Below, in pieces: positions 16,654 to 48,325 of a stretch of DNA of 53,737 nt; the stretch's first letter is position 1; the number at the start of each line of letters is the position of its first letter. The stretch is from Pelatocladus maniniholoensis HA4357-MV3 (GTDB lineage: Bacteria > Cyanobacteriota > Cyanobacteriia > Cyanobacteriales > Nostocaceae), in contig JAHHHW010000100.1 of the NCBI GenBank assembly GCA_019359115.1, positions 1-53,737 on the forward strand, written 5' to 3'. The translations under genes and the position numbers were made by a program. Below the pieces are notes generated by a model that was given only the letters and a program-made list of their open reading frames with translations, was not told where the DNA came from and made no database searches.

Positions 16654-16768
16654 TAGCAGTTCTCGGTTGTGTCCAATACGTACCCCACCCCTTAATCTCC
16701 TAAGCGCAAGCGGGGAGGGGATTAAGGGGTGGGGTTCCGACTGTATTGCAATCGAGTGAGAAGTGCTA
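16654..16768 (+). mobile_element. TA-flanked MITE-like repeat, copy 1
   Basis: 115 bp beginning TAGCAGTTCTCGGTTGTGTC and ending GAGTGAGAAGTGCTA. The ends are imperfect inverted repeats that continue inward to CCCCACCCCTTAAT and ATTAAGGGGTGGGG. The same sequence in opposite orientation occurs at 48196-48325. Both copies have TA at each edge, which fits TA target duplication of the IS630/Tc1-mariner kind (inference). Confidence 0.7.
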
Positions 16769-16802
16769 TATTTGTCATTGGAGAATCCCCGATCCCCTGA
16801 TT

Positions 16803-18653
16803 TTAATATCCTCTCGGCGCTCCTTCACCACGCGGATCGGCTGCTGCTTCTAAACTTCCGTCAGACGTAACTGCGATCGCGTTAATATTTCCCCAAGGTT
16901 GAATTTGTTTAATTTTGTGTCCCCGACGCTGTAATTCTGCCAAAGTGAGGGTATCTAAACCAAAAGGTTCGACTCGTAATTCATCAGGAAGCCATTGATG
17001 ATGAATGCGGGGGACAGAAACAGCTTCACCGACATTCATGTTGTACTCTAATACATTCAGGATGACTTGCAACACTTGGGTGATAATTGTCCCCCCACCA
17101 GGCGCACCCACTGCTAGGCGCAGGCGATTATTTTCTGTGACAATGGTGGGAGTCATACTGGATAGAGGTGTTTTGCGTGCTGCGATCGCATTAGCTTCGT
17201 TACCCGGTAAACCAAAAGCATTCGGTACTCCTGGCGCAGCAGCAAAATCATCCATTTCGTTATTGAGGACAATTCCCGTCCCCTCTGCAACCACACCAGC
17301 ACCAAACCCCAAGTTAACAGTAAAAGTCAGACTGACGGCGTTGCGTTGTGCATCGACAACGTTAAGATGGCTTGTTTCTGAAGACTCGTAACGAGGTTGA
17401 TAGAATGTTTCCTGTGTGTTGCCAGTAGTAAGAAAATTGTTAGTAGAGGGGATGAGTCCTTGCTTTTGCTTGCGAAGAACAGGTTGAGGAGTAAGATTCT
17501 GTTCTAACATTTTCATAGTAGCAGGCTCAATTTCCTTTGCAGCCCTAGCCCTATTCATCATAATTTCAGATCGCCGCAGTTGGGCATAGCCAGGGCTAAT
17601 CAATTGTTGTACAGGTACTTTGACAAAATCGGGATCGCCTAAAAGTTTCGAGCGATCAGCATAAGCAATTTTCATTGCTTCCACCATCAGATGGATTGCA
17701 TCAGGATGATGCCAACCTAAAGATTTTAAATTGGTAGAACCGATAATATTTAATATTTCTAATAAATGTACACCTCCAGAAGAAGGAGGTGGCATTGAAC
17801 AAACTCGTGCTTGACGAAAATTACCACAAACAGGAGTGCGCCAGATTGGTTTGTAAGATTTCAAATCTTCCAGAGTTACCAAACCACCATTTTTTGCCAT
17901 GTCAGCAGCAATAGCACGAGCAATATTTCCAGTGTAAAAACTACGTGGATTCTGAGATATTGCTGTTAATGTTTTTGCTAAGTCACGCTGTACCAGTTTT
18001 TCTCCAGGTTGATAAAATTCCCCATTGCGAGTAAAAATTGCTCGTGCGGCTGGGTTACTAAGAATTACTTGCTTACGGTTTTCATACTCTGGTATAGAAC
18101 GCAACCTTACTTGAGGACTCAGAATAAATCCATCTTTAGCAAGAGCGATCGCAGGTTTGACAACTTCTGCCCAAGGTAACTTACCATAACGTTGATGCAC
18201 TTCGTACAGTCCTGCCACCGTTCCTGGTGTTCCTACTGCCAAGTGACCATTGATACTCAAATTTGGACGCACCTTACCCTGAGCATCCAAATACATATTT
18301 CTTGTTGCTTTCAAGGGTGCGCGTTCACGAAAATCTAAAGCTTTAATTTCTCCAGTTTTAGCATCGCGAAACAGCAAAAAGCCACCGCCGCCAATTCCTG
18401 CCGAAAACGGTTCCACCACAGAAATCGCAAAAGTCGTCGCTACAGCTGCATCAACTGCATTACCACCTTTACGTAACATTTGCAAACCTGCGTCACTCGC
18501 TAAAGGATTTGCAGACACCACCATAGCTTTTTTGGTGCGTAAAGGTAAGCTAACGGTAGCTGCTACCTGTTTGTGGTTGTAAAACAGTAATGCAGAAAAA
18601 CACAGATGAAAAATAAATACTGAAACCTGCGTGTAACGACGGAGATTAGGCAT
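16803..18653 (-). CDS. ggt: Gamma-glutamyltransferase (glutathione hydrolase)
   Basis: A periplasmic N-terminal-nucleophile hydrolase that cleaves the gamma-glutamyl bond of glutathione. It has 616 residues from ATG at 18653 (GTG at 18668 also in frame). An N-terminal signal segment (VFIFHLCFSALLFY) is followed by the large subunit with MVVSANPLASDAGLQMLRKGGNAVDAAVAT and GGGGFLL. The autoprocessing and nucleophilic Thr lies in SSETSHLNVVD. The small-subunit motif LSSMTPTIV and GAPGGGTII are present. All key blocks of an active enzyme are kept. Confidence 0.95.
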   Translation of the reverse strand: MPNLRRYTQVSVFIFHLCFSALLFYNHKQVAATVSLPLRTKKAMVVSANPLASDAGLQMLRKGGNAVDAAVATTFAISVVEPFSAGIGGGGFLLFRDAKTGEIKALDFRERAPLKATRNMYLDAQGKVRPNLSINGHLAVGTPGTVAGLYEVHQRYGKLPWAEVVKPAIALAKDGFILSPQVRLRSIPEYENRKQVILSNPAARAIFTRNGEFYQPGEKLVQRDLAKTLTAISQNPRSFYTGNIARAIAADMAKNGGLVTLEDLKSYKPIWRTPVCGNFRQARVCSMPPPSSGGVHLLEILNIIGSTNLKSLGWHHPDAIHLMVEAMKIAYADRSKLLGDPDFVKVPVQQLISPGYAQLRRSEIMMNRARAAKEIEPATMKMLEQNLTPQPVLRKQKQGLIPSTNNFLTTGNTQETFYQPRYESSETSHLNVVDAQRNAVSLTFTVNLGFGAGVVAEGTGIVLNNEMDDFAAAPGVPNAFGLPGNEANAIAARKTPLSSMTPTIVTENNRLRLAVGAPGGGTIITQVLQVILNVLEYNMNVGEAVSVPRIHHQWLPDELRVEPFGLDTLTLAELQRRGHKIKQIQPWGNINAIAVTSDGSLEAAADPRGEGAPRGY

Positions 18654-18756
18654 TGTAATTGAGTACACTCAGAGTTCTTATAGTATCATACAGCTGGTAA
18701 GCCGATGCATTCACAATGTAAGCTAATGCATTCACAATAGACATCTCCGAAACAAT

Positions 18757-19206
18757 GTAGAGACGTAGCATTACTCTGTAGACCTCTTGCAAAAGTCGAA
18801 TGAACCCCCCTCAATCCCCCCGTGAACGGCAGGGTGGTTTCATACGAAAAAAGAAAAATATGGAAGTCTGTATTTCTCGTTTTGAAGCATAGATTTTTAC
18901 CCCTCTCCAAACCTCTCCCCTTATTAAGGGGAGAGGCTTTAAAAGAAGATTTTAATTTTTCTCTGCTTGTATGAAACCACCCTGCTCAATCCCCCCGTGA
19001 ACGGGGGGAAGATTTAGTTCCCTCCCCGTTTACGCTTAGGGTTAGGGTGGGGTAAAAATATTTTTGCAAGAGGTCTTGTCAAGTCAAGTTTAAATTTATG
19101 GATAAGAAAGTTCGTAGTAAGGACTTAAGTCCTTATTTTTTAAGCACGCGCATTGCTTACTACAAACCCTTAATTCAAACTTGACAGAGTAATGCTACGT
19201 CTCTAC
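18757..19206. mobile_element. Composite of nested inverted-repeat elements (at least four layers)
   Basis: Outer layer: a perfect 23-bp inverted repeat at 18757-18779 (GTAGAGACGTAGCATTACTC...) and 19184-19206. Layer 2: AGACCTCTTGCAAAA (18780-18794) with its complement at 19062-19076. Layer 3, inside layer 2: CAGGGTGGTTTCATAC (18830-18845) with its complement at 18969-18984. Layer 3 is flanked by the 20-bp direct repeat CTCAATCCCCCCGTGAACGG at 18810-18829 and 18985-19004. Layer 4, beside layer 2: GTCAAGTTT (19083-19091) with AAACTTGAC (19177-19185). It encloses GTAGTAAG (19114-19121) with CTTACTAC (19156-19163). No protein is encoded. Confidence 0.85.
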
Positions 19207-19256
19207 CTCCCAATTCGCGTAAAATTGCGAACGGAACATTGGAAAGGTTTTTCATC

Positions 19257-20141
19257 ATGGACAAAGTATTAGAACAAACATCTTCGGTGATACTGCGTGG
19301 GGGACGACCCGACGACGCACTCAAGTGTGGCACAATTCTGTATCAAGGGTTCCGTGACATTGCGGAACAGCACGGCTTCGTACCTGACCTTCCTTCTGCG
19401 GAGTATGGGGTACAAATGCTGACCGAAATTTTAGCGAACCCGGCGGTTTATTCAGTCGTGGCTGAGACTGAGGACGGACGCGTTATCGGTAGCAACTTTT
19501 TATGGGAAGGTGACACTATCGCCGGGATTGGCCCCATTACGGTAGACCCCGCCGCGCAAAACAAGTCGGTTGGTCGCCGCTTGATGGAACATGTTTTACA
19601 AAGGACACGCGAAAAACGGTTCGCTGGGGTGCGGCTCCTTCAAGCTGCATATCACAACCGCTCGCTTTGCTTGTATGCAAAACTGGGCTTCGATGTGCGC
19701 GAGCCACTAGCGAACCTTCAAGGACAGGCGCTTGGCTTGAAGATACCTAGTCGCACCGTTCGTCCGGTGACTGAAACCGACCTGACAGCGTGTAATCAAC
19801 TCTGCGATCGCATTCACGGTCATGATCGGGCGGGCGAACTAAAGGGAGCTGTTGAGCGGGGTACAGCAACACTTGTCGAGTATGATGGGCGCGTATCGGG
19901 CTACGCCACCGAAATTGGCTTCCTGGGTCACGCTGTTGGCGAAAACAATGAAGACTTAAAGGCGTTGATCGGAGCAGCTCCAGAGTTCACGGGGTCGGGC
20001 TTTTATCTTCCGACGCGTAACGGCGATCTGTTCCGTTGGTGTTTGAACCATGGGCTGCGTGTCACCCAGACCGCAACGTTGATGAGTCTCGGACTGTATA
20101 ACGAACCGTCAGGGGCCTTTCTATCGTCCGTCCTGTATTAA
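19257..20141 (+). CDS. GNAT-family N-acetyltransferase, tandem-domain type
   Basis: An acetyltransferase of unknown substrate. It has 294 residues from ATG at 19257, with GGAAAGG (19241-19247) as ribosome site; the frame also opens at TTG 19239. The first GNAT domain (about 12-150) has motif A DPAAQNKSVGRRLMEHVL and HNRSLCLYAKLGF. The second half (about 165-294) looks like a degenerate GNAT-like domain. Base composition is visibly GC-richer than the neighbours, which suggests transfer. Its stop overlaps the convergent flv2 stop by four bases (20138-20141). Confidence 0.85.
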   Translation: MDKVLEQTSSVILRGGRPDDALKCGTILYQGFRDIAEQHGFVPDLPSAEYGVQMLTEILANPAVYSVVAETEDGRVIGSNFLWEGDTIAGIGPITVDPAAQNKSVGRRLMEHVLQRTREKRFAGVRLLQAAYHNRSLCLYAKLGFDVREPLANLQGQALGLKIPSRTVRPVTETDLTACNQLCDRIHGHDRAGELKGAVERGTATLVEYDGRVSGYATEIGFLGHAVGENNEDLKALIGAAPEFTGSGFYLPTRNGDLFRWCLNHGLRVTQTATLMSLGLYNEPSGAFLSSVLY

Positions 20142-21880
20142 TAATGACTACCGGATTTGCGATGCTGAATAGCGGTGACACCTGTTGGTTCCAACACTTC
20201 GCCTTTGTCTACGGTGGCATAAATTAACCAGCGATCGCCACATTCAGTTCGTTGTTGCACGGTACATTCTAAATAGGCTAGGGCATCGCTAAGAATTAAA
20301 CAACCGTTGTTAGCTGTTGTGGTTGTTAACTGAGCAAAAGGATCGTCACCTGGAGTATTGTAGTAGGAAAAGTAGCGTCTGAGGTCACGTCCTTCTTTGA
20401 GAATATTCAAAACAAATTGATCGCCAGGATGAATCATCGCATCTGCATTTTGATCTTGAGCGATCGCAATCATCAAACCAGGAGGATTAAAGGTAGCTTG
20501 AGATACCCAAGAGGTGAGGATTCCACTGTGGCTATCACCACGTCGGGTACTGAAAACACACAGCGAACCAATAATCCGTCCAACAGCTTGCTCTGTCCGA
20601 TCTACTTGTGCTTCCGTTAATGCTTGGCGAGAAGTGCGGAGTTTCTTTTTCTTTTTCAAGACTTGGGCAAATTCCGCTCCTGCATCCTGGCATTGTTGCA
20701 TAATAAACTCAGTAGGGCTGAAGCGAACGCGGATAGTTTCAAACCCGAAGCGATAATTGGCATCTAAAAGTTTACTTTCAATCAGATCAATTGCTTCTCC
20801 ACTCCAACCATAAGAACCAAACACACCCGCTAATTTGGTTTTCGCCGCCGCCGAGAGGATAATTCCTAAAGCCGTTTGAATTTGGGTAGGTGCATGGCCG
20901 CCTAAAGTGGGAGAACCGATAATAAAGCCATCACAAGCTTCAATTGCACGAGTAATTTCACTGGGTTCTGTAAATTCGCAGTTAATCGATTCCACTGCAA
21001 CTCCAGTTTGAATCAACCCTTGAGCGATCGCCTGGGCTAAACTTGCCGTACTACCATAAGCAGAAGCATAAAGCAACGCCACTCGCAATTCCTGGGTTTT
21101 TTGTTCCTGACACCATTGGCGATAATCGTAAGTAAAACGACTAACACTGTAACGAACAACAGGGCCATGGCCAGGGGCGTAATATTTTGCTTTGAGATGT
21201 GCTAATTTGTCTAAAGCTATTTCTACTTGTTTGGCTTGGGTAGCGTGGAGACATTCAAAATAGTAACGGCGATCGCCATCGAGTTGCTTCCAATCTTCAT
21301 CAAATAAGACATCGTTACAGACATGTACCCCAAATAACTTATCACTATAAAGAATACGGCTAGCAACATCATAAGTACACATTCCATCTGCCCATCGGGG
21401 AGTTGGTACAGTCACAAATTGCAGTTGATGTCCCTCACCTAAATCCAGAGTATCTTCAGAACGAACAAGTTGGATTTTTGATTCCCAATCAGCAAAAGTA
21501 TTTTTCAGAACATTAGCACCAGGTTTAGAACAAATAATCTTGGCTTGGGGTGCATGTTCTATCAAGACTTTGAGAGTCGCCATCCGATTAGGATTGACAT
21601 GATTGAGAATAATGTAATCTAAGCGAGTTAAATCTTGGTGTTTGTGTAATTCTTCCAAAAAAATCTGAGTAAAAGACTCACCCGGAGGATCAATCAAAGC
21701 AGTGCGATCAGCTTTAATCAAATAACAATTAGCAGTAGTACCTTTTTGGCGAGCATATTCAACCTCAAACTTGAGACGTTCCCAAGTACGCGATCGCAAA
21801 ACCAAAGTCCGAGTACCAATTAGAGCAACTTGAACATCACGAGGGTGACTGACTGTTGAGGTTACAGTTGAGAGAGACAT
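20138..21880 (-). CDS. flv2: Flavodiiron protein Flv2 (class C, non-canonical iron site)
   Basis: Partner of Flv4 in a heterodimer that takes electrons from the photosystem II acceptor side. Domains in order: metallo-beta-lactamase-like (about 20-260), flavodoxin (about 265-410, LLYASAYGSTASLAQAIAQG) and flavin reductase (about 430-580). The iron-ligand motif HxExDH is replaced by NHVNPNR, and the later His/Asp positions read PRWADG and SDKLFG. Such replacement marks the Flv1/Flv2 type, while the distal PGHGP is kept. The ATG at 21880 (MSLSTVTS) fits homologues. TTG at 21925 would overlap the upstream gene's stop and add 15 residues. Confidence 0.92.
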   Translation of the reverse strand: MSLSTVTSTVSHPRDVQVALIGTRTLVLRSRTWERLKFEVEYARQKGTTANCYLIKADRTALIDPPGESFTQIFLEELHKHQDLTRLDYIILNHVNPNRMATLKVLIEHAPQAKIICSKPGANVLKNTFADWESKIQLVRSEDTLDLGEGHQLQFVTVPTPRWADGMCTYDVASRILYSDKLFGVHVCNDVLFDEDWKQLDGDRRYYFECLHATQAKQVEIALDKLAHLKAKYYAPGHGPVVRYSVSRFTYDYRQWCQEQKTQELRVALLYASAYGSTASLAQAIAQGLIQTGVAVESINCEFTEPSEITRAIEACDGFIIGSPTLGGHAPTQIQTALGIILSAAAKTKLAGVFGSYGWSGEAIDLIESKLLDANYRFGFETIRVRFSPTEFIMQQCQDAGAEFAQVLKKKKKLRTSRQALTEAQVDRTEQAVGRIIGSLCVFSTRRGDSHSGILTSWVSQATFNPPGLMIAIAQDQNADAMIHPGDQFVLNILKEGRDLRRYFSYYNTPGDDPFAQLTTTTANNGCLILSDALAYLECTVQQRTECGDRWLIYATVDKGEVLEPTGVTAIQHRKSGSHY

Positions 21881-21921
21881 ATTATTAGTGGAGGGAATGG
21901 GGAATGGGGAAAGGGGAACAT

Positions 21922-22446
21922 TCAAAAATTAGAATGACTATTAATCTCTTGGGCGAGACGTTTTTTGTAACGCTTCGAGACTTCTTGTTCAGGATCAATA
22001 CCTTCAAAAGTTGGAGGAAGCCATACTCTCAAAACCATCAATGCACCCAACACCAGCAAAAAAGCACAAGCAGCCAAAACTTGCACAAACGTAGTTTCTA
22101 GTACACCTCTGACAATCATTTCTCGGAGTACAGAAACAATCGAGACTTCCACAGCAACCCCAATTGAAACCCGTTGCTCTTGCAAATAAATAATCAACAG
22201 ACGAAATAACTCTACTAAAATCAGCAATGACAGAATATCTGCCGTCACAGTGTGGGAGTAAATCGGGGGAATCAAAGAAAGGAACATAGTCCAGATTTGC
22301 AGCACCATAAAGCTAAATAGCCCGATGCATAAAGAAATCACAATTAAATCCTGAATTAGTTCCAGTGCTTGTACAATCCGTCCCAAATTCAACCAACTTT
22401 CTCGTTTTACAGGTTTGACTGGCAAATCTTTCAGCAATTGCATCAT
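21922..22446 (-). CDS. PsiE-like membrane protein of the flv4-flv2 operon (Sll0218-like)
   Basis: A 174-residue integral membrane protein with about four spans (34-60, 70-90, 105-120 and 120-143). The segment VSIVSVLREMIVRG is typical of the phosphate-starvation-inducible PsiE family. Its place between flv4 and flv2 matches sll0218 in Synechocystis, whose product stabilises photosystem II under stress. The function is taken from that synteny. Its stop (21922-21924) lies next to or within the possible upstream start of flv2, consistent with translational coupling. Confidence 0.85.
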   Translation of the reverse strand: MMQLLKDLPVKPVKRESWLNLGRIVQALELIQDLIVISLCIGLFSFMVLQIWTMFLSLIPPIYSHTVTADILSLLILVELFRLLIIYLQEQRVSIGVAVEVSIVSVLREMIVRGVLETTFVQVLAACAFLLVLGALMVLRVWLPPTFEGIDPEQEVSKRYKKRLAQEINSHSNF

Positions 22447-22478
22447 TATAATGACTCCGATGAAGCTAACTTGTCGAG

Positions 22479-22563
22479 ATGGGTGTAGCTCAGAGGTGTA
22501 GGTTTTTTACACTTTGCTCAAAAAATACTGGTTTTAGGGTGTAGACCCTTATACTCTTACACC
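22479..22563. repeat. GGGTGTAG-type repeat between flv4 and the psiE-like gene
   Basis: GGTGTAGCTCAGAGGTGTAG at 22481-22500 and GGGTGTAGACCCTTATACTC then TTACACCC at the far end can partly pair with each other. This short intergenic repeat resembles those at 7120 and 9829. It interrupts the flv operon but is too weak to call a terminator. Confidence 0.4.
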
Positions 22564-22567
22564 CGTG

Positions 22568-24295
22568 TTAATAATGGTTTCCCACTTTACGATGGTGAAC
22601 GGCGGTGAGGGTGTCTAGTTTGCCGACTCTACCAGTGTGGACACTGCTGTAAATAATCCAATGATCGCTGCACTCCATGCGGGTTGTGACTTCACATTCC
22701 ATGTATGCTAAGGCATCTGCCAAAATGGGACAGCCATTGCTAGCGGCGTAAGTTTTGATATCTGCAAACCGATCTGCACCAGGAGAGAAACGCTTGAGGA
22801 AGTGTTTCATTAAGCTTTGATAGTTGTCTTCCTCTAAGACGTTGAGAATAAAGCGATCGCCTATATGCAACAAAGATTCAATAGCCCGATCTTTGGCAAC
22901 TGCAATGGCGACTCCTAAAGGATTCATGCTTGCTTGCATCACCCAAGAAGCTAACATAGCACTATTAACATCGCCTTTTTGGGCAGTAATGATATAGAGT
23001 CCACTACTAAGTCTTCCTAATGCTCTTTCTAAGTCATTATCTAGGGTTTTGATTTGTTTAATCGTGCGATCGCGCATTAACCATTGTCCGATATCAGTTC
23101 CCGCTTCATCACACATTTGTTCTATTACTTTTGTCGGTGGTTCTTTAATCAGAATCGGCGGAAAAGCTTCAGTCAGTCCGATTTCTTGAAATTTATTCCG
23201 CAAAGGATATATTGGTTCATCTTCCCCACCACCAGTTTCAAACAACCCTACTGCTTGTTTATTGTGAGCAGCTGCGAGAATAGTACTTAAAGCTGCATGG
23301 GCATTTTGATCAGATTGAGATGGCATTCCAATAATTAAACCACTTGCTTGACTCACGAATTCTCGAACTTCTTGGGGTTCAGCAGTACTTAAATCTACCA
23401 GTTCAACTGCGACACCATTTCTTGTAATTCCATGAGTGATCGCTCTTGCTAATTGGTCACTATATCCGTAATCTTCACAGTAAAACAGGGCAACAAAGGT
23501 ATCTGCTTTTGCTTGTTCCTGGCTCCATTTTTGATAGGAACTTACCCAGTCTGACAGGTAGTGTTGCAATAAAGGCCCGTGTCCTGTAGCAATCATCCCA
23601 ACATCTAGTTTTTCCATCCGCTTGATTGCAGACAGCACAGAACGGGCATTTGGCCCCATCAGGCAATCATAGTAATATTTAAAGTCTTTTTCTAGTAATT
23701 CTCGATCTTCGTCAAAAGTATAGTCATCACAGTAATGCATCCCAAAAGCATCACAAGTATAAAGGATGCGGGTTTTACTATCGTAGGTAAAAATGGTATC
23801 TGGCCAATGAAGATTGGGAGCAGAGACAAATTCTAACTGATGTCCGTTGCCTAAATCCAAGCGATCGCCATTCTTGACAATTAAAGATTGGAATGGCTGA
23901 TGTACCATGTTTTCCAAAAATTGAATCGCAACTTTTGCCCCGACTACTGTGACTTGAGGTGCTAACTGCAATACTTCTTTTACCAAACCACTATGATCCG
24001 GTTCAGTATGGCTAATAATTAAGTAATCCAGGGTTGAGAGGTCAATCAAGCCTTTGATAGCATCTAAGTATAATTCCTGGAATTTGCGATGAGAAGTATC
24101 AACTAGTGCAGTTTTTTCACCTCTAATCACAAAGGAATTATAAGTTGTGCCATTCTGCAATCCAAACTCAATGTCAAAGCGATCGCGATCCCAATCTAGA
24201 GAACGAATAGCGATCGTTTGCGATCCAATCTCAATCGTTTGTGTAGTCAAGCGACCTGGCGATTTTGTATTCTCACGATCAGTTAGTGCAACCAT
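22568..24295 (-). CDS. flv4: Flavodiiron protein Flv4 (class C, canonical iron site)
   Basis: Forms the Flv2/Flv4 complex that relieves electron pressure on photosystem II at low CO2 and high light (known from Synechocystis). It has 575 residues from ATG at 24295 with an excellent ribosome site, GGAGG six bases upstream. The metallo-beta-lactamase-like domain has the full diiron motif HTEPDH, then NLHWPDT, TCDAFG and TGHGP. Flavodoxin (LFYCEDYGYSDQLARAITHG) and flavin reductase domains follow. It is the first gene of the operon flv4-psiE-like-flv2. The canonical ligands and gene order separate it from flv2. Confidence 0.94.
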   Translation of the reverse strand: MVALTDRENTKSPGRLTTQTIEIGSQTIAIRSLDWDRDRFDIEFGLQNGTTYNSFVIRGEKTALVDTSHRKFQELYLDAIKGLIDLSTLDYLIISHTEPDHSGLVKEVLQLAPQVTVVGAKVAIQFLENMVHQPFQSLIVKNGDRLDLGNGHQLEFVSAPNLHWPDTIFTYDSKTRILYTCDAFGMHYCDDYTFDEDRELLEKDFKYYYDCLMGPNARSVLSAIKRMEKLDVGMIATGHGPLLQHYLSDWVSSYQKWSQEQAKADTFVALFYCEDYGYSDQLARAITHGITRNGVAVELVDLSTAEPQEVREFVSQASGLIIGMPSQSDQNAHAALSTILAAAHNKQAVGLFETGGGEDEPIYPLRNKFQEIGLTEAFPPILIKEPPTKVIEQMCDEAGTDIGQWLMRDRTIKQIKTLDNDLERALGRLSSGLYIITAQKGDVNSAMLASWVMQASMNPLGVAIAVAKDRAIESLLHIGDRFILNVLEEDNYQSLMKHFLKRFSPGADRFADIKTYAASNGCPILADALAYMECEVTTRMECSDHWIIYSSVHTGRVGKLDTLTAVHHRKVGNHY

Positions 24296-24557
24296 TGCTT
24301 GCCTCCAACAATTTTTTGGGGTAATTATGCTCACTTATTTAATCTTTATCTGGATGCACTACATTTGTAAAATGTCAATTTTTAAAGTTTGTTATTAGTT
24401 ATTTAAAATTGTAAAAACATCTTGATTAATTTATGCTTATCATAAGGTTTGTGCGAATCACAAACACAAAGTTCAAGATCCCCGACTTCTGTTGAGGATG
24501 CAGCTGGCGAATCAGGGGTGACATCTCTCATCAACGATTTTTCGTCATTCCACCAGA

Positions 24558-24588
24558 TGTAGAGACGTAGCAATGCTACGTCTCTACA
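24558..24588. repeat. GTAGAGACG palindrome, 14-bp perfect stem
   Basis: TGTAGAGACGTAGC (24558-24571) pairs perfectly with GCTACGTCTCTACA (24575-24588) over a 3-base loop. It shares its arm sequence with the outer layer of the nested element at 18757-19206. It could fold strongly in RNA from either strand. Confidence 0.85.
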
Positions 24589-24614
24589 AGCCAATTTGTG
24601 GGCTTGATTTTATG

Positions 24615-24670
24615 AAGTCGTCTGAAGACGACTTGTGCTATTAGCTAACGGTTTAAACCGTTAGCGGTAT
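24615..24670 (-). repeat. Double-palindrome repeat, copy 1
   Basis: It contains the hairpin AAGTCGTC-TGAA-GACGACTT (24615-24634), a 10-base spacer and the perfect palindrome CTAACGGTTTAAACCGTTAG (24645-24664). The same arrangement on the other strand is at 45655-45709. The copies differ in the hairpin loop, which is inverted. Located just downstream of the hydrolase gene. Confidence 0.85.
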
Positions 24671-24675
24671 AATAA

Positions 24676-27716: not shown

Positions 27717-27723
27717 ACAACTT

Positions 27724-37890: not shown

Positions 37891-37916
37891 GCTTACGCAG
37901 AATTTCCTGATACCAA

Positions 37917-38018: not shown

Positions 38019-38762
38019 ATGACGAATAAACTTATTGAAAAAGTAGCATTAGTCACTGGTGGCTCACGCGGTTTGGGGGCTGCGATCGCCAAACGTCTGG
38101 CGGATGATGGCGCTGCTGTCGCCCTCACCTACACCAGTTCACCACAAAAAGCTGAAGAGGTGGTGCGCGTTATCGAAGCAGCAGGTGGTCGAGCCTTGGC
38201 TATACAAGCTGACAGTGCCGATGTTGAAGCAGTGAAAAACGCCGTTGCTGAGACAGTAAAAACTTTTGGTCGTCTTGACATCCTCGTTAACAACGCGGGG
38301 GTCGCCACTATGGCTCCAATCGACCAGTTCTCGCTAGATGATTTTGATCGGCTCGTTGCAGTTAACGTCAAGGGCGTTTTTGTCGCAACTCAAGAGGCTG
38401 TGCGTCACATGGGCGAGGGCGGACGTATCATTATGATCGGCAGCGTCAACAGTGATCTCGTTCCTGTTGGCGGTCTCTCAGTTTATGCTTTGACCAAAGG
38501 TGCGATCGCTAGTTTTACACGCGGTCTTGCTCGCGACCTTGGCCCTCGTGGTATCACAGTTAACAATGTCCAACCCGGCCCAGTGGACACCGACATGAAT
38601 CCAGCAGACGGCCCTTTTGCCGAAGGTGCAAAAGGGATAATCGCCTTGGGACGCTACGGTCAAAGCGATGAAGTCGCTAGTTTTGTTTCCTATCTCGCCA
38701 GTCCCGAAGCCAGCTTTATTACTGGCGCGAACCTAAAGATTGATGGTGGCTTCGCAGCCTAA
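38019..38762 (+). CDS. SDR-family oxidoreductase (3-oxoacyl-ACP-reductase-like)
   Basis: An NAD(P)-dependent short-chain dehydrogenase of unknown substrate. It has 247 residues: cofactor motif TGGSRGLGAAIA, NNAGVATM, catalytic Ser in IGSVNSDL, Tyr-x-x-x-Lys in YALTKGA, and the usual end ASFITGANLKIDGGFAA. The classical FabG-like fold is complete. Base composition is GC-richer than the flanks, like the GNAT at 19257, which suggests recent acquisition. It seems to stand alone. Confidence 0.92.
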   Translation: MTNKLIEKVALVTGGSRGLGAAIAKRLADDGAAVALTYTSSPQKAEEVVRVIEAAGGRALAIQADSADVEAVKNAVAETVKTFGRLDILVNNAGVATMAPIDQFSLDDFDRLVAVNVKGVFVATQEAVRHMGEGGRIIMIGSVNSDLVPVGGLSVYALTKGAIASFTRGLARDLGPRGITVNNVQPGPVDTDMNPADGPFAEGAKGIIALGRYGQSDEVASFVSYLASPEASFITGANLKIDGGFAA

Positions 38763-38770
38763 TGCGGAGT

Positions 38771-38845
38771 CAATACGTTTTGGTTAAGGATTTTTCGGCA
38801 TAATTTTTTCATGTAGAGACGTTGCAGTGCAACGTCTCTATAACT
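38771..38845 (+). mobile_element. Half of a CAATAC-family MITE with GTAGAGACG palindrome
   Basis: CAATACG, GGTTAAGGATTTTTCGGC and the palindrome at 38813-38840 (GTAGAGACGTTGCAGTGCAA... ) align with the left half of the copy at 46562. The right half is missing. In its place, the 21-bp tandem array begins within a few bases of the palindrome. Confidence 0.8.
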
Positions 38846-39097
38846 AATTTACAAGTCGCAAAAGCTAGTTTACAAGTCGCAAAAGCTAGTTCACGAGTCG
38901 CAAAAGCTAATTTACAAGTCACAAAAGCTAGTTTACAAGTCGCAAAAGCTAGTTCACGAGTCACAAAAGCTAGTTTACAAGTCGCAAAAGCTAGTTCACG
39001 AGTCACAAAAGCTAGTTCACGAGTCACAAAAGCTAGTTCACGAATCACAAAAGTTAATTTGCGACTCGCAAAAGTTAGTTTACGAATCACAAAAGTT
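38846..39097. repeat. 21-bp tandem array, 12 units
   Basis: Units of 21 bp like TTTACAAGTCGCAAAAGCTA plus G repeat 12 times with variants (TTCACGAGTCAC..., TTTGCGACTCGC...). Each unit is three 7-mers. Because 21 is a multiple of three and stop codons are absent, both strands stay open for 93 codons with 7-residue periods (LQVAKAS / TRELAFV). I do not regard either as a gene. It lies between the SDR gene and the TAXI gene (convergent). Confidence 0.92.
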
Positions 39098-39153
39098 AGT
39101 TAATAAATTGAATTTTTATAGCCCACTTACTTATATCAACTCCGAATTTTCGC

Positions 39154-40713: not shown

Positions 40714-41377
40714 TAATTTATCTGTCCACTTTCGCCTGCCGGATGGTGCGATCGCTTGACTTTTAAGACAATCGCTACAAAGTTAAGATTTTGTGAATAA
40801 ATACTCTCTAAATATTGTCACATAGGTGGCGATCACTATTTTTGTGCCTATGTGCTTGAAAATTAGGGATTCTTCTAAAGGAGAGGCGATTAACTTCGCA
40901 GCAAACCCATGATCCATCTGTGTTAGTTCAATTTTTTATCCCCTTGTTGTGGCGATCGCTTGTGGGGATCTGTATCTTTCGATTTTCACAAAATTACGTG
41001 AAAAATCTAAATATACTACTCTTATCGTACTATTTTATACTTAATTTATAAATAATCAGGTATAATGCCTTAGAATAAATTAATTTATTTTGCAGTAATC
41101 AATTTTACTTAAAAAGAATTTTAATACATAAATTAAACATTATAAATTTAAAACGATAAGATATGTAAAAAATTAATTTTTCTTAAATCAATCATTTAAG
41201 AAAAAAGCACCGAACATACTAACAGTGATAAAAAATCACCCAACTTCAACAACGCTGCCCTAAAAAGGTGTGTGGATTGTAAAATGTAAGTCTTCAAGAC
41301 TTATAAACGATCAAGCATTATTAGTAATTAGCTTTCTATTAGTAAAGCCAGACCAACTATAATTCAGCATTAAATAC
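40714..41377. other. 660-bp AT-rich region upstream of kdp
   Basis: A divergent gap expected to hold the kdp promoter. It contains a hairpin CACATAGG...CCTATGTG (40819-40854) and the near-palindrome TAAGTCTTCAAGACTTA (41287-41303), 75 bases before the kdpA start. Either might be a regulator site, but no known operator is matched. Confidence 0.5.
41287..41303. promoter_or_regulatory. Near-perfect palindrome upstream of kdpA
   Basis: TAAGTCTT-C-AAGACTTA is an 8-bp inverted repeat around one base in the kdpA leader. It is a candidate operator or hairpin. No matching regulator is known to me. Confidence 0.35.
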
Positions 41378-43063
41378 ATGACACAGGGTTTTTTGCAAAT
41401 AGGGTTAACGCTCTGTATTTTAATAGTAATCACTCCATTTTTTGGAAGATACATAGCTCGTGTCTTCTTGGGTGAAAGCACTATGTTTGACTCCGTATTC
41501 AACCCGGTTGAGCGAATTATTTATATACTGGGAGGTGTACGTAGCAAACAAGACATGACAGGTGGACAGTACATCCGCGCGGTGTTATTCAGCAATTTGC
41601 TCATGGGTGTTGCTGTCTACTTGATTTTAAATTTTCAGGGAATTTTGCCGTTGAATCCCATGAACTTGAAATCACTGCGCTGGGATCTAGCACTACACAC
41701 AACAATTTCATTTCTGACAAATACTGACCAGCAACACTACATTCCTGAGACAACTTTAAGTTACTTTAGTCAAACAGCAGCTTTAGGTTTTTTGATGTTT
41801 ACTTCGGCTGCAACTGGATTAGCTGTAGGTATTACCTTTATTCGTGGATTAACAGGTAGACCACTGGGGAACTTTTACGTAGATTTAGTTCGTGCTATTA
41901 CACGGATATTGTTACCAATATCTTTGATTGGTGCGATCGCTTTAATTATCTCAGGGACACCACAAACATTACTTCCAGCTCAAGCTGTCACCACCCTCGA
42001 CGGCTTTAGTCAGTATATAGCTAGAGGCCCAGTAGCTTCTTTTGAAATGATTAAACTGTTGGGTGAAAACGGCGGTGGTTTTTTTGCTGCTAACTCTGCT
42101 CATCCATTTGAAAATCCTAATGGTGCTTCTAATTTAATAGAGATGATCGCCATGCTATGTATCCCAATGGCTTTGATTTACACCTATGGATTATTTGCTA
42201 ACAACATCAAACAGGCTTGGTTGCTGTTTTGGATGATGTTTGCAATTTTTGTAGTTTTGGTAGCTGTCACAGCAACTAGCGAATATCAGGGTAATACTTT
42301 GATCAACGGCACTTTGGGATATGAAATACCAAATCTCGAAGGAAAAGAAGTCCGCTTTGGTTCAATCCTGACTGCATTTTGGGCGATCGCGACCACAAGT
42401 ACAATGACTGGTGCTGTTAATGGAATGCATGATTCTCTCATGCCCACAGGAAGTTTTGCCACTCTATTAAATATGTTCTTACAAATTATTTGGGGTGGTC
42501 AGGGAACAGGAACCGCTTATCTATTTATCTATTTAATTTTGACTGTCTTCTTAACAGGGTTGATGGTGGGACGTACACCAGAGTTTTTGGGGCGAAAAAT
42601 TGAGAAGCGAGAAATTGTCCTCGCCAGCGTAGTTTTATTAATTCACCCAATCGCGGTTTTAATTCCAAGTGCAATTACCTTATACTTTCCAGAAACATTA
42701 GCTGGGATTAGCAATCCTAGTTTTCATGGTGTCTCCCAAGTTGTTTATGAGTACACCTCAGCCAGCGCCAATAATGGATCTGGCTTTGAAGGTTTAGCAG
42801 ATAATAGCTTGTGGTGGAATCTGAGTACCATTTTCAGCTTAGTATTGGGGCGCTATGTTCCGATTATTGCCATTCTGCTGTTAGCCGATAGTATGACTCG
42901 CAAACAACCAGTACCAACAACACCAGGTACTTTAAGAACCGACACTCTGCTATTTACCAGTGTCACCGCCGGAGTAATTTTAATTTTAGGAGTACTGACT
43001 TTTTTCCCAGTTTTAGCCTTGGGTCCCATCGCCGAAGGATTTAAAATCGCCTCTGGTAAATAG
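41378..43063 (+). CDS. kdpA: Potassium-transporting ATPase subunit KdpA
   Basis: The K+ channel-like subunit of the KdpFABC high-affinity potassium pump in the plasma membrane. It has 561 residues with about ten spans. Visible family blocks: [41 protein letters not shown] (selectivity filter region), [15 protein letters not shown] and [15 protein letters not shown]. These Gly-rich filters are intact. First gene of kdpA-kdpB-kdpG/F-kdpC-kdpD, all in the same direction. Confidence 0.97.
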
Positions 43064-43159
43064 AATCAGTTATCAGTTATCAGTTAACAGTAACCAGTTT
43101 AATTTGATAACTGTGTTAACTGTTAACTGATTTATACCCATCCCCGCTCCCCAATATAT
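43064..43159. repeat. CAGTTATCAGTTAACAG short repeats
   Basis: AGTTATC and AGTTAAC 7-mers at 43068-43095 are partly mirrored by GTTAACTGTTAACTGAT further right. They can fold back between kdpA and kdpB. Related strings lie at 45780-45811, before kdpC. Confidence 0.55.
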
Positions 43160-45271
43160 ATGAATCCAGCTGCAACTACCCCTAAACCTCCCAAACCTGG
43201 ACGTTATCGTGCGAGCGATCGCCGTCATAAACGCAAACAGTCACGGATAAATACCAAAGGTATTTATTTGAGGGCGATAAAAGATGCTTTTGTGAAGCTC
43301 AATCCTCAACAAGCAGTGAAAAACCCAGTGATGTTTTTAGTCTGGGTTGGGACACTGATCACTCTTGCGGTGACAATTGAGCCTGATTTGTTTGGCCCAG
43401 TTACCGAGAAAAATCCCCGATTATTCAACGGGATCATCACGGCGATTTTATTCTTCACCGTTTGGTTTGCTAATTTTGCCGAAGCAATTGCTGAAGGTAG
43501 AGGTAAAGCCCAAGCTGACGCCCTGCGTTCAACTAAGTCAGAAACGATCGCCAAAAAACTTTTTGCCGATGGCGCAATTACGGAGGTTTCTTCCACTAGC
43601 TTGCAAAAAGGTGATACTGTCTACGTTGTTGCTGGTGACACAATTCCCGCAGACGGTGAAGTTGTTATGGGTACTGCGAGTGTCGATGAATCAGCAATTA
43701 CTGGCGAATCTGCTCCGGTATTAAAAGAACCTGGTTCTGATATTGCTAGTTCTGTCACTGGTGGGACGCGGATTATCTCTGATGAACTAATTATCCGCAT
43801 AACTGCTGAACCAGGCAAAGGTTTTATTGACCGGATGATTGCTTTAGTAGAAGGAGCAGAACGGAGGAAAACACCCAATGAAATTGCCCTGACGGTATTA
43901 CTTGCTGTTCTCAGTTTAGTATTTCTGTTTGTAGTAGCAACTGTGCCGTTCATTGCTCACTATGTGCAAATTCAAGTCAGTGTGGCAATTTTAGTCGCGC
44001 TGTTGGTAGCATTGATCCCCACGACTATCGGTGGGTTACTCAGTGCGATCGGGATTGCTGGGATGGATAGGGTTGCTCAGTTTAACGTGATTGCTACCTC
44101 TGGACGAGCTGTGGAAGCATGTGGTGATGTTAATACACTACTTCTCGATAAAACAGGCACAATTACTTTAGGCAATCGTTTAGCAGAAGGGTTAATTCCT
44201 GTCAATGGTCACTCAATGGAACAAATTGCTTATGTGGCTTTGGCAGCGAGTATATTTGATGAAACTCCAGAGGGGAAATCTATATTTAGACTGGCGGAAA
44301 AATTAGGAGCAAAAATTGATTTCAACCCGGAAAAAGCCGAAGCAGTAGAATTTTCCGCTAGAACTCGCATGAGTGGCACAAATTTACCCAATGGCAAAGA
44401 GGCGCGTAAAGGTGCGGTAAATGCAATTAAAGGATTTGTGCGTACACACAACAGTCAACAAGATATACCAGATCTAGATGCTGCCTACGAAATGGTTTCC
44501 CAGCAAGGCGGGACACCACTAGCAGTGTGCTTGGATGGGGATATCTATGGCGTGATTTATCTCAAAGATATAGTTAAGCCAGGGATACGCGATCGCTTTG
44601 ATCAATTGCGACGCATGGGAGTACGTACCGTTATGTTAACGGGCGACAATCACATTACTGCTTCTGTCATTGCCAAAGAAGCGGGAGTCGATGACTTTAT
44701 TGCCGAAGCAACCCCAGAAGATAAAATCTCTGTAATTCAAAGAGAACAGGAAAAAGGCAAAATAGTAGCAATGACCGGAGACGGTACAAACGATGCACCA
44801 GCCCTAGCTCAAGCTAACGTCGGAGTAGCAATGAATACAGGTACTCAAGCTGCTAAAGAAGCAGCAAACATGGTGGATTTAGATTCTGATCCGACAAAGC
44901 TCATCGATATAGTTGGCATTGGGAAACAATTGTTAATTACTAGAGGAGCATTAACAACATTTTCGATCGCCAATGATATCGCTAAGTATTTTGCAATTAT
45001 TCCAGTATTATTTGCTTCTGCCAACCTACAAAGTTTAAATATCATGAAGCTAACCAGCACAAATTCTGCTGTGCTGTCAGCGCTCATTTACAATGCATTA
45101 ATTATTCCTGTTTTAATTCCTTTAGCACTCAAGGGTGTAAAGTTTCGACCTTTAACTTCTAATAAATTATTACAACGCAATATATTTATTTATGGCTTGG
45201 GTGGTGTAATTGCACCTTTTATTGCGATTAAATTAATTGATTTAATCATTACGGCTATAGGGTTGGCGTAG
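43160..45271 (+). CDS. kdpB: Potassium-transporting P-type ATPase subunit KdpB
   Basis: The ATP-hydrolysing subunit of the K+ pump. It has 703 residues, slightly long because of a basic N-terminal extension (about 1-45). The phosphorylation motif DKTGTIT (Asp330), TGES actuator motif (AITGESAPV), MLTGDN, and hinge [14 protein letters not shown] are all present. The conserved [20 protein letters not shown] and the kdp-type membrane region follow. All catalytic residues are kept. Confidence 0.97.
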
Positions 45272-45349
45272 GAAGAGATTGGGGAAACGGGATTGGGAAT
45301 AGATTATATATTTTATTTTTGATTTATATATTTAGAGGTGAAAAAATAA

Positions 45350-45628
45350 ATGAAGATAAATAGAAAAATTAATTTATTTAATAAGTTTTTATCGACAGAT
45401 ATAGTAGAGTCCATTTCTTTTATTTGGTCACAATGGTACCAACAAAAATTACCACTAATAATTTTGATTGCTTTGTGTCTCAATATGGTAATTGCTCCAG
45501 TTGTTTATGCGGCTGCTGATGGTGTTTTAGAACGTCGTTCAGCTTGGGCAATTGGGATTTTAGGTTTTATAACATTGGCACTGATAGTTTATTTATTTTT
45601 TGTTGTTTTTCAACCAGAACGCTTTTAA
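45350..45628 (+). CDS. kdpG: Small membrane protein between kdpB and kdpC (KdpG/KdpF-like)
   Basis: A 92-residue protein with two predicted membrane spans (about 34-53 and 68-86). The last 25 residues, ILGFITLALIVYLFFVVFQP, resemble KdpF, the small stabilising peptide of the pump. The N-terminal part is extra. Its position between kdpB and kdpC corresponds to kdpG of Anabaena kdpABGCD operons. Ribosome site AGAGGTG lies ahead of the ATG. Whether it replaces KdpF is an inference. Confidence 0.8.
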   Translation: MKINRKINLFNKFLSTDIVESISFIWSQWYQQKLPLIILIALCLNMVIAPVVYAAADGVLERRSAWAIGILGFITLALIVYLFFVVFQPERF

Positions 45629-45631
45629 CAG

Positions 45632-45778
45632 GGGAGCATCCCAATTTTTTCAATATACCGCTAACGGTTTAAACCGTTAGCTAATAGCACAAGTCGTCTG
45701 AAGACGACTCAAATAAATCAAGCTATGAGACTGCGATTTCAATCGCAGGCGGGTTTTTTGAACATTTGGGATGCTCCC
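45632..45778. mobile_element. MITE-like element with GGGAGCATCCCAA ends
   Basis: GGGAGCATCCCAA (45632-45644) and TTGGGATGCTCCC (45766-45778) are perfect 13-bp inverted ends, 147 bp in total. The double-palindrome repeat at 45655-45709 is nested inside, and a hairpin TGCGATTTCAATCGCA (45732-45747) lies to its right. The element separates kdpG and kdpC. Confidence 0.8.
45655..45709 (+). repeat. Double-palindrome repeat, copy 2
   Basis: ATACCG, then CTAACGGTTTAAACCGTTAG (45661-45680), CTAATAGCAC and the hairpin AAGTCGTC-TGAA-GACGACT. It is the reverse-orientation counterpart of 24615-24670, identical except that the hairpin loop is flipped. Confidence 0.85.
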
Positions 45779-45870
45779 TTTAACAGTTATCAGTTATCAG
45801 TTAACAGTTATCAGACTAATTAATTAAGAAAGTAATCACCAATTACCAATTACCAATTGACTTACTTGTT

Positions 45871-46473
45871 ATGTTTATTATTCGAGAAATTATCAGAGCA
45901 ATTCGGATCACTATATTATTGTGGTTGGTGACAGCCGTTATTTATCCTGTTGCAGTTTTAGGAGTTGGTCAAGCTTTTTTTAAAGAGAAAGCAGACGGTA
46001 CTATTATGCAAAATATCCAAGGAGAAGCTATTGGATCAGCTTTGATTGGTCAACAGTTCCGATCAGAACGCTATTTTCAAGGTCGTCCCAGTGCTGTCAG
46101 ATATAGTCAAGGAAAATTAGGTAGATCGACTGGTGTATCAGGTGCAAGCAACTTTGCTCCCAGCAATCCAGACTTACTTCAGCGTGTGGTTGAGAAGTCT
46201 AATGAACTTAACGATGAGAATATTCAACCTTTCGCTGACATTATTTATACTTCTGGTTCTGGTTTAGATCCACATATTTCTGTCAGAACAGCACAAGAAC
46301 AGCTAGAAAGAGTAGCTCGTGCGCGTAATCTTACCAGAGAAGAAATAGTGCCATTTATCAAACAATATACAGAAGGGAGATTTTTAGGTATTTTCGGCGA
46401 ACCTGGAGTGAATATCTTGAAATTAAATTACGCCCTCGACCTCCAAGAAATTAACCGTAGGCAAAACCAATAA
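45871..46473 (+). CDS. kdpC: Potassium-transporting ATPase subunit KdpC
   Basis: A single-span subunit that helps assemble or activate KdpB. It has 200 residues: membrane segment about 9-33 (ITILLWLVTAVIYPVAVLGVGQ), then the periplasmic domain with GSALIGQQFRSERYFQGRPSA, SNFAPSNPDLLQRV, YTSGSGLDPHIS and the end GEPGVNILKLNYALD. All usual KdpC motifs are present. It is the fourth gene of the operon. Confidence 0.96.
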   Translation: MFIIREIIRAIRITILLWLVTAVIYPVAVLGVGQAFFKEKADGTIMQNIQGEAIGSALIGQQFRSERYFQGRPSAVRYSQGKLGRSTGVSGASNFAPSNPDLLQRVVEKSNELNDENIQPFADIIYTSGSGLDPHISVRTAQEQLERVARARNLTREEIVPFIKQYTEGRFLGIFGEPGVNILKLNYALDLQEINRRQNQ

Positions 46474-46561
46474 TATTGTTGATCATTGGTCAATTGTCAA
46501 TGCTCAAGAGTCAATTATGTTTATTCTCCCCCTTTCCCCGATCCCCGATCCCCATTACCCC

Positions 46562-46676
46562 CAATACTGCTCGGTTAAGGATTTGTCGTCGTAATTTTGG
46601 GCATGTAGAGACGTTGCAGTGCAACGTCTCTACAGGTTTTAAATGTCAATCGATTTGTCTTATCCGAGCAGTATTG
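46562..46676 (+). mobile_element. MITE, CAATAC family, with 10-bp target duplication
   Basis: The 115-bp element has perfect 13-bp ends CAATACTGCTCGG (46562-46574) and CCGAGCAGTATTG (46664-46676). It is flanked by CCATTACCCC on both sides (46552-46561 and 46677-46686), a clear target duplication. The centre is the palindrome GTAGAGACGTTGCAGTGCAA... at 46606-46633. It sits in a C-rich repeat between kdpC and kdpD. It is the best-preserved of four copies. Confidence 0.92.
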
Positions 46677-46728
46677 CCATTACCCCTTATCCCCTCCAGG
46701 GGCCTCACCTTCCCCGATCCCCTTCCCC

Positions 46729-47856
46729 ATGTATCCAGCGCGTCGTGGTAAACATAAAATTTTTATTGGTATGGCTCCTGGTGTAGGTAAAACTTACCGG
46801 ATGCTAGAAGAAGGTCATGCGCTTAAAGAAGAAGGGATTGATGTTGTGGTTGGGTTGTTGGAAACCCACGAACGTAAAGAAACAGCACAGATGGCTGAGG
46901 GATTGGAAATATTACCCCGTAAACAAATTCCACGGGGTAATTTGATGTTGACAGAGATGGACACCGACGCAATTTTGGTGCGATCGCCTCAATTAGTATT
47001 AATCGATGAACTCGCTCATACCAATGTCCCCGGTTCACCCCACGAAAAACGTTACCAAGATGTAGAAATTGTTTTGCAAAATGGTATTGATGTTTACTCG
47101 ACAATGAATATTCAACATCTGGAGAGCCTCAATGATTTAGTAGCAAGAATTACTGGCGTCGTAGTCCGGGAACGAGTTCCTGACAAAGTTTTAGATGACG
47201 CTAATGAAGTTGTGGTAATAGATGTTACGCCAGAAACATTGCAGGAGCGGTTGCTAGAAGGCAAAATCTACGCATCACAAAAAATCCAACAAGCACTTGA
47301 TAACTTTTTCCAACGTCGCAACCTAGTAGCTTTACGGGAATTAGCATTGCGAGAGATTGCAGACAACGTTGAAGAAGAAGCCAGAGAAATGAGTGCAGGA
47401 TTGACGAGTGGTGTGAATCCGCAAGGTCAATTCTGTAATATTCGAGAACGGGTATTAGTATGTATTTCCACATATCCTAATTCGTTGCAACTATTACGTC
47501 GGGGTGCGAGGATAGCTAATTATATGAATGCTCCTCTGTTTGCTTTATTTGTTGCTGATTCTGACCGCTTCCTCACGAAAGAAGAAAGCTTGCATATAGA
47601 TATTTGTGAAAAGCTGTGTAAGGAATTTGAAGGTAATTTTATACGTGTTCCTAGTAATGATATTGCTGAAGCGATCGCACAAGTAGCTGAGAAATACCAT
47701 ATTACTCAAATAGTTATTGGTGCTAGTCAGCGATCGCGTTGGCAAATTCTCCTCAAAGGTTCTCTGGCCCATAAACTACTGCGATCGCTGAAAAATACTG
47801 ATTTGCATATTATCGCTATAGATAAAAAAAATACAGTTCCAGAAAAACTATTGTAG
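46729..47856 (+). CDS. kdpD: Short KdpD: KdpD N-terminal domain plus universal-stress domain, no kinase
   Basis: A 375-residue version of the K+ sensor. The KdpD domain (about 5-213) has Walker A GMAPGVGKTYRM, Walker B VLIDELAHTNVPGS and DVYSTMNIQHLESLNDLV. A Usp-like domain (about 240-368) ends with VIGASQRSRWQILLKGSLAHKLL. The membrane spans and histidine kinase of E. coli KdpD are missing, and no kdpE is adjacent. This truncated form is known from Anabaena. How it signals is not settled; nucleotide binding looks intact. Confidence 0.93.
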   Translation: MYPARRGKHKIFIGMAPGVGKTYRMLEEGHALKEEGIDVVVGLLETHERKETAQMAEGLEILPRKQIPRGNLMLTEMDTDAILVRSPQLVLIDELAHTNVPGSPHEKRYQDVEIVLQNGIDVYSTMNIQHLESLNDLVARITGVVVRERVPDKVLDDANEVVVIDVTPETLQERLLEGKIYASQKIQQALDNFFQRRNLVALRELALREIADNVEEEAREMSAGLTSGVNPQGQFCNIRERVLVCISTYPNSLQLLRRGARIANYMNAPLFALFVADSDRFLTKEESLHIDICEKLCKEFEGNFIRVPSNDIAEAIAQVAEKYHITQIVIGASQRSRWQILLKGSLAHKLLRSLKNTDLHIIAIDKKNTVPEKLL

Positions 47857-47883
47857 TAGAAACGCGAAATTTCGCGTCTCTAC
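47856..47883. repeat. GTAGAGACG-family palindrome after kdpD
   Basis: 28 bases beginning GTAGAAACGCGAAA form a palindrome with one mismatch. The last base of the kdpD stop codon is its first base. As RNA it would be a strong 3'-end hairpin for the kdp transcript. Confidence 0.75.
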
Positions 47884-47911
47884 AAAGGATTAGTTTCTAA
47901 ACCCTTAGTCG

Positions 47912-48088
47912 GTATTCCTGATTAATGGTAGACCAATTAATACTAATGTCAACACCTATCATGGAGCCACTGATTTAAATAGCATTCCTGTAGAATCAAT
48001 TGACAGAATTGAATTATCAAGTGGTGCTGTCACCACTCTGTATGGTTCATCTGGTTTTACTTTTCGGATTGGTTTAACATCGAATTAG
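47912..48088 (+). pseudogene. Relic of a TonB-dependent receptor plug domain
   Basis: An open stretch of 58 codons reads VFLINGRPINTNVNTYHG, then TDLNSIPVESIDRIELSSG and VTTLYGSSG. This is the conserved plug region of outer-membrane TonB-dependent receptors. There is no start codon and nothing of the barrel remains. It is a fragment left from a lost siderophore- or substrate-receptor gene. Confidence 0.82.
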
Positions 48089-48195
48089 TTCATACTTATA
48101 CCAATTTTCTGTGAAGCTGCACATTATTTTGACCCCTCCCAACCTCCGACCCCCCTCAGAGGGGGGTTTTACCGCAGGCGGTGGGGTTCTTCATA
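48089..48195. other. Intergenic sequence with pyrimidine/purine-rich hairpin
   Basis: It contains ACCCCCCTCAGAGGGGGGTT (48149-48168), a strong short hairpin, between the TonB relic and the TA-flanked repeat. No gene. Confidence 0.45.
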
Positions 48196-48325
48196 TAGCA
48201 CTTCTCACTCGATTGCAATACAGTAGGAACCCCACCCCGGCTTTGCTGACGCAAAACCTCCCCTCCCCGCTTGCGCTTAGGGGATTAAGGGGTGGGGTAC
48301 GTATTGGACACAACCGAGAACTCTA
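48196..48325 (-). mobile_element. TA-flanked MITE-like repeat, copy 2
   Basis: The reverse complement of the element at 16654-16768. Its ends TAGCACTTCTCACTCG and CCGAGAACTCTA and the inner ATTAAGGGGTGGGG arms are conserved. About 15 extra bases with unrelated sequence in the centre (GGCTTTGCTGACGC) differ from copy 1. Confidence 0.72.

Follow-up and report, generated by a model that had tools for sequence, protein, structure and literature searches.

The window studied here, a 53,737-nucleotide contig of Pelatocladus maniniholoensis HA4357-MV3 (JAHHHW010000100.1, C100 among the contigs of this 6.7 Mb draft genome) taken at its full length, contains two copies of a short, G-rich palindromic element in opposite orientation, which raises the question of what this element is, how it was moved, and whether the pair acts on the 31 kb that lie between its members. 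Copy 1 is located at 16654–16768 (115 bp, plus strand) and copy 2 at 48196–48325 (130 bp, minus strand). The coordinates and orientation given in a preliminary description of the window proved exact to the base, and the common ends and long arms it reported are borne out by a 98% match over 64 bp and 46 bp (E = 2.1e-38 for the pair in a search of the organism's own genome). We refer to the repeat as family A, and we hold with considerable confidence that it is a non-autonomous miniature inverted-repeat transposable element (MITE) of the IS630 group which inserts at TA, and whose G-rich palindromic cassette is common to the shell of another family, family C.

The genome contains 88 places matching the repeat (40 of 81 candidates scored). 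A pattern built from the right end, with at most 3 mismatches allowed, was found at 32 places in the genome and at none with the reversed-pattern control, which rules out chance. In the 39 loci examined, 31 complete copies were parsed, 22 of them without nested inserts (73–137 bp) and 9 with inserts (282–456 bp). Family A is short, carries no transposase gene and is present in many copies, and its identity as a MITE is firm. The two window copies do differ in the centre, as had been described: copy 1 has an ATTAA arm at the position where copy 2 has a hairpin module of about 20 nt (GGTTTTGCGTCAGCAAAGCC). The bases of this module had been considered unrelated, but the module is present again in most of the uninterrupted family A copies.

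TA is found at both edges of 27 of the 31 complete copies, while the other four, copy 1 included, have one altered edge; the lack of a TA rule at other copies, which the preliminary description had named as refuting, did not occur. For the window copies themselves, TA at each edge holds for both sides of copy 2 (48194–48195 and 48326–48327) and for the right side of copy 1 (16769–16770), but not for the left side of copy 1 (16652–16653), which reads TC. Empty sites with a single TA could be established to the base in three cases. At the copy 1 site, a genome of the same genus (G002) reads GTTTAA-TA-TTTGTC where the window reads GTTTAA-TC-[element]-TA-TTTGTC, which indicates that the left TA of copy 1 has turned into TC. 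At a second site (L005), another genome of the genus (G003) reads AAATTC-TA-TTACT, compared with AAATTC-TA-[TAGC...GCTA]-TA-TTACT here. The third site lies within a host MITE, which reads GACGCA-TA-TAAAGAAC when unoccupied (L325) and GACGCA-TA-[TAGC...GCTA]-TA-TAAAGAAC when occupied (L081). Given these sites and the 27 copies with TA at both edges, family A inserts at TA and duplicates it, and TA duplication is a feature of the IS630 superfamily.

The flanks of the 31 family A copies and of two chimeric elements described below were checked against 1.7 Mb of G003, part of a contig of 6.7 Mb, and against 100 kb of G002. Some match was obtained at 28 of the 33 sites, many of them to repeats only, and nine family A sites could be judged (L001, L003, L005, L008, L012, L014, L018, L023 and L075). 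The MITE is missing from the relative at all nine, the closest match to an end within the gaps having 10 mismatches in 25. Since every comparable site is empty in close relatives, these copies appear to be young. No match better than 3.6e-11 was obtained in other genomes, compared with 4.7e-30 or lower for the intact copies here (among the matches listed, with 14 candidates scored per genome). The plasmid collection gave no match, and the right-end pattern gave no stretch in the genome contig collection, which may omit close kin of this genome. The weak matches elsewhere, together with the empty sites, make it seem likely that family A expanded recently in this lineage.

A source for the mobilising enzyme was sought through the element ends. 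This genome has 102 ends of the TATAGCRSTTCTS form (none in the control), spread over several MITE families (A, the 104-bp family B and others). A longer form of the end is present in 14 of the 34 genomes searched, including this one, and a still longer form in at least 116 stretches of the genome contig collection, mostly from Nostoc, Scytonema and Brasilonema. From the two scans with these longer forms, 146 loci were checked for paired ends, yielding 14 pairs at 12 loci. Three of these loci are IS630-family insertion sequences (ISs) of 1035–1053 bp (about 1.04 kb), bounded on either side by exact TATAGCGGTTCTC ends and encoding an IS630 transposase, from other cyanobacteria: Nostoc paludosum FACHB-159 (L145), the metagenome-assembled genome (MAG) of Trichormus sp. 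M33_DOE_039 (L152) and a Chroococcidiopsidaceae MAG (L133). Two further loci with paired ends (L115 and L123) were rejected, their translations not being IS630 by eye. The three ISs resemble family A in having ends of about 30 bp and differ from it in carrying two overlapping transposase frames, and none was found whole in this genome. In L145, the frames overlap at a run of nine A and match DDE_3 (8.1e-36), HTH_Tnp_IS630 (1.4e-7) and the NCBI IS630 model NF033545 (2.9e-36). Among relatives found through the protein, L260 has both ends, and L288 and L289 have one each. The ends of families A and B have 19–26 of 33 bases in common with the ends of all these ISs, compared with 7–13 of 26–33 bases for the ends of three unrelated IS630 elements in this genome.

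An IS630 transposase acting on TATAGCGGTTCTC-type ends would thus have moved family A by cut-and-paste into TA sites. As only a broken remnant of such an element was found here, the helper has probably decayed or been lost, or was not captured in the draft. The remnant (L288, on contig C53) consists of a left end and an orfA-like stretch (72% over 80 amino acids) interrupted by about 270 bp, followed by orfB (76% over 50 amino acids) and then by unrelated sequence. In 20 stretches of this genome taken at lone TATAGC ends, a second end was found within range only for MITEs, the open reading frames (ORFs) having been checked in one stretch. MITEs of the IS630 type have often lost their helper, and an autonomous partner in the same genome is not required for the class. 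The IS630-type mobilisation that had been proposed for the pair is supported by both the TA empty sites and the IS630 elements with like ends; the autonomous IS with these ends was found in other cyanobacteria, but this genome holds only the remnant.

Both window copies fold into strong hairpins, with z-scores against shuffles of −7.6 for copy 1 and −4.6 for copy 2. The palindromic core of copy 1 (16682–16737, plus strand) has the mixed tip TAAGCGC-AA-GCGGGGA and an ATTAA arm, while the core of copy 2 (48228–48298, minus strand) has the same mixed tip, with the hairpin module replacing one ATTAA arm. Across copies, the tip consists of AAG/CTT or CCC/GGG arms around a loop of TT, AA, GT or AC, and the arms can be matched or mixed; the reverse complement of the tip of copies 1 and 2 is found in L020, so that both orientations of the tip are represented. 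Copies of the core arm in the genome number 56 (control: 0), 42 in A-type loci and 14 in 13 loci with the shell, whole or cut, of family C, which has TATCAAGTTCGG...CGAACCTGATA as its ends. All five core-bearing family C copies parsed here with both ends are flanked by a 3-bp repeat (TAA or TGA); the flanks of a family C copy in G002 (L046) are by eye TCA and TAA, with no exact repeat. The cores of A and C are 96% alike over 56 bp. In direct orientation, the ends of the two shells show no likeness beyond that of shuffled sequences, 312 and 363 of 500 of which score equally well. Two loci, L027 and L080, combine a left half of A with a right half of C, joined via the core. By visual inspection, L384 has its core reversed within a C shell, and L081 has it cut down to a stub within an A shell. 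We infer that cores of what would be one cassette, common to shells with different ends and different duplications, are exchanged between these shells by recombination or conversion. Such exchange would explain the mixed tips, the swapped arms, the reversed and deleted cores and the A/C chimeras; that it is triggered by cleavage of the extruded hairpin is a guess.

Another small element is found in the hairpin of 13 A-type loci (9 complete copies and 4 further loci). The commonest of these inserts has CTRCGGTGTACACA ends, of which the genome contains 124 (at most 1 mismatch) compared with 1 for the control. It measures 143–207 bp in most of the cases tabulated and is located in the hairpin tips of several MITE families (at L023, L024, L029, L030, L075, L078, L079 and others). 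Its flanks were compiled in 31 rows (30 from this genome and 1 from G002, three places yielding two rows each), in which direct repeats of 10–11 bp are found in 13, of 7–8 bp in 2, of 5 bp in 1 and none in 15. The target sites of this tip element fold at a median of −22.0 kcal/mol (RNA parameters), compared with −8.9 kcal/mol for 31 family A target sites and −8.5 kcal/mol for 500 random 58-mers. Where present, the repeat equals half of the hairpin, so that one flank retains a whole hairpin, the palindrome of the target being restored there. Hairpin tips are also landing sites for this third element. The ORF starts of 17 stretches around lone ends, inspected by eye and without a profile search, showed no recognisable transposase of the tip element. 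Nesting of other kinds was also observed: at L025 (contig C82) it reaches three levels, with the tip element in a GGGTGGTTTCATAC element in a family A copy, and at 18780–19076 of the window a MITE with AGACCTCTTGCAAA ends encloses another element, GGGTGGTTTCATAC...GTATGAAACCACCC, on both sides of which stands a direct repeat of about 20 bp (CTCAATCCCCCCGTGAACGG); this inner element is also found in L025 and L395.

Copy 2 is itself nested, as it lies inside a host MITE (48099–48350) with ends TACCAATT / TACCATTT, similar to the ends of an IS630 on contig C14 (L036). It has lost one base at its left end (TATAGAG), and the same compound of host and family A, with an identical one-base loss in family A and different outer flanks, is found on contig C163 (L029), while a third copy of the host (L081) has family A at the same TA. 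The compound has probably moved as a unit, and a host MITE could in this way carry family A along.

Taken further, these observations lead to a model in which the palindrome is a self-renewing cassette that shells relying on different transposases trade through recombination at the extruded hairpin, and in which its tip is a landing pad for other small elements, whose entry, with a 10–11 bp duplication, rebuilds the hairpin. We put this model forward tentatively, as a possible rather than a probable account. Several observations also weigh against the reading of family A given above. The copy 1 site reads TG and not TA in G003. The ISs L145, L152 and L133 were picked by their end pattern, so the match is partly a matter of selection, their ends are similar and not identical to those of family A, and the second frame of L152 is broken. 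A search with the L145 transposase brought up 30 loci by protein similarity, of which L260 alone has both ends; 12 (L260 and 11 others) have an end-like match with at most 4 mismatches on a 22-base pattern and 18 have none, some loci being cut by contig ends, and since most of them lack such ends, these mark a subgroup only. No end of this kind is present at fewer than 2 mismatches at any of the 14 DDE_3 places in this draft genome, and no complete helper was found among them. As for the core, tip arms are matched in 18 of 24 hand-classified cores (one of them from family C), with a Fisher p of 0.023 that ignores the relatedness of copies. The ends of A also match the reverse-complemented ends of C better than most shuffles do (24 and 17 of 500 are as good), so that the two shells may be remotely related. 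The chimeras L027 and L080 have base variants in common and may derive from a single event; in G002 only one of the two L080 flanks was located, and neither flank of L027 was located in the 1.7 Mb of G003 and 100 kb of G002.

The common core could instead be a small cassette, mobile in itself and inserting into MITEs, without exchange by recombination, which we consider rather unlikely. Besides shells A and C, the same core occupies a shell of the TACCAATT type in another genome, G011 (L049 and L071), and some cores of other genomes have flanks that could not be classified (e.g. L047, L053 and L054). The small dispersed repeats of Nostoc, which Elhai et al. reportedly described in 2008 as small hairpin units within minitransposons of filamentous cyanobacteria, with nesting, are said to behave comparably, and by this description they are like family A in their embedded hairpin units and nesting. 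However, no free-standing core is found here, as all 13 non-A loci with a core arm show at least part of shell C, no duplication is seen by eye at the core edges, and the two half-A/half-C loci are what would be expected from recombination through the core. The strength of the folds and the position of copy 1 between convergent genes (an ORF at 15776–16651 on the plus strand and a gamma-glutamyltranspeptidase gene at 16803–18668 on the minus strand) would also suit a domesticated regulatory or terminator hairpin, retained for its function between genes. This is improbable, as the nine comparable sites are all empty in close relatives, which makes these copies young, and a search of Rfam with three loci gave no match; some copies may nonetheless be put to such use on occasion. 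Palindromes present in many copies, of which at least copy 1 is intergenic, also recall the repetitive extragenic palindromes (REPs) and bacterial interspersed mosaic elements (BIMEs) spread by REP-associated tyrosine (RAYT) transposases, which are IS200/IS605-like. REPs and BIMEs are tagged palindromes that lack both long terminal inverted repeats and a target duplication, and the terminal inverted repeats, TA duplication and IS630-like ends of family A do not fit with them, making this origin scarcely credible.

A different role was suggested for the pair in the preliminary description, namely that it could support recombination inverting the segment from 16.7 to 48.3 kb. Both relatives, G002 and G003, are collinear with the window on both sides of the copy 1 site, and the rearrangement that does distinguish the window from them ends at about 31.2 kb and about 47.9 kb (47.8–47.9 kb). 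These two points are about 1.0 kb apart in G003, which differs further, and 2.2 kb apart in G002, where the sequence found here beside the chimera L080 (C98:3167–4296) falls between them. Since the left end of the rearrangement is far from copy 1, the proposed inversion is unsupported as a fixed event, although the culture might still harbour it as a polymorphism. That copies 1 and 2 nevertheless act as an inverted-repeat switch flipping the intervening 31 kb is very improbable: their inverted arms at 98%, the A/C chimeras, which suggest recombination among such elements, and the distance of only about 0.3 kb between copy 2 and the right end of the rearrangement would speak for a switch, but the collinearity at copy 1 and the breakpoint at about 31.2 kb speak against it, a homology of about 115 bp at a distance of 31 kb is short for frequent recombination, and with 29 other complete copies elsewhere the pair is unremarkable. 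At the breakpoint near 31.2 kb, an ORF of 89 amino acids resembled TnpB by eye and was rejected as such, having no Pfam match. Close to the other breakpoint, the stretch at 47909–48088 looks by eye like the beginning of the plug domain of a TonB receptor and ends near the start of the host MITE of copy 2.

Family A as an IS630-group MITE belongs to a known class, and the core it shares with another shell, together with the chimeras, is the unusual part. It is like the IS630/Tc1-mariner-type MITEs of bacteria, among them the cyanobacterial MITE Nezha (cited in PMC10969869 and PMC3733652), in being short, non-coding, bounded by terminal inverted repeats and present in many copies, and it differs from them in that its core is common to a second shell and forms chimeras. 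In Anabaena sp. 90, 147 complete or partial MITEs of 77–541 bp are reported and assigned to type II for lack of any IS with matching ends in that genome (PMC3542288, in excerpt); for family A, by comparison with the excerpted account, an IS630 with like ends was found, albeit in other genomes. In the literature searched, no description of shared-core or chimeric cyanobacterial MITEs was found, which is no proof of absence, the 2008 work of Elhai et al. being outside the comparison. Here, a cyanobacterial MITE family is tied to an IS630 source through its ends and through base-exact empty sites, and the loci described indicate that a single palindromic core can be held in common, swapped and recombined among MITE families whose target duplications differ. 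This common core could be read as a record, kept within a genome, of the fate of long hairpins in bacteria. If the model of trade at the hairpin is true, hairpin breakage and repair would be a route to mosaics of unrelated MITE families and to moved chromosomal joints.

The tip element has likenesses among ISs that target palindromes, which are described for REP targets (PMC1525189, in excerpt) and for the IS4 family, where target duplications of 8–13 bp are given for a subgroup (PMC2266710, in excerpt). Judging from these excerpts, the tip element resembles them in entering at hairpin tips, and its repeat of 10–11 bp is within the range of the IS4 subgroup. The nested tip elements offer a simple view of palindrome-targeted insertion with a rebuilt target.

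Two minor features of the window copies can be added. Within the core of copy 1, the stretch at 16713–16735 (GGGGAGGGGATTAAGGGGTGGGG) has 4 runs of four G with short spacers, and by eye fits a G-quadruplex motif. Adjoining copy 2, a tandem array with a period of 21 bp extends over about 48365–48890, and similar 21-bp arrays are found at 11387–11491 and 38792–39127.

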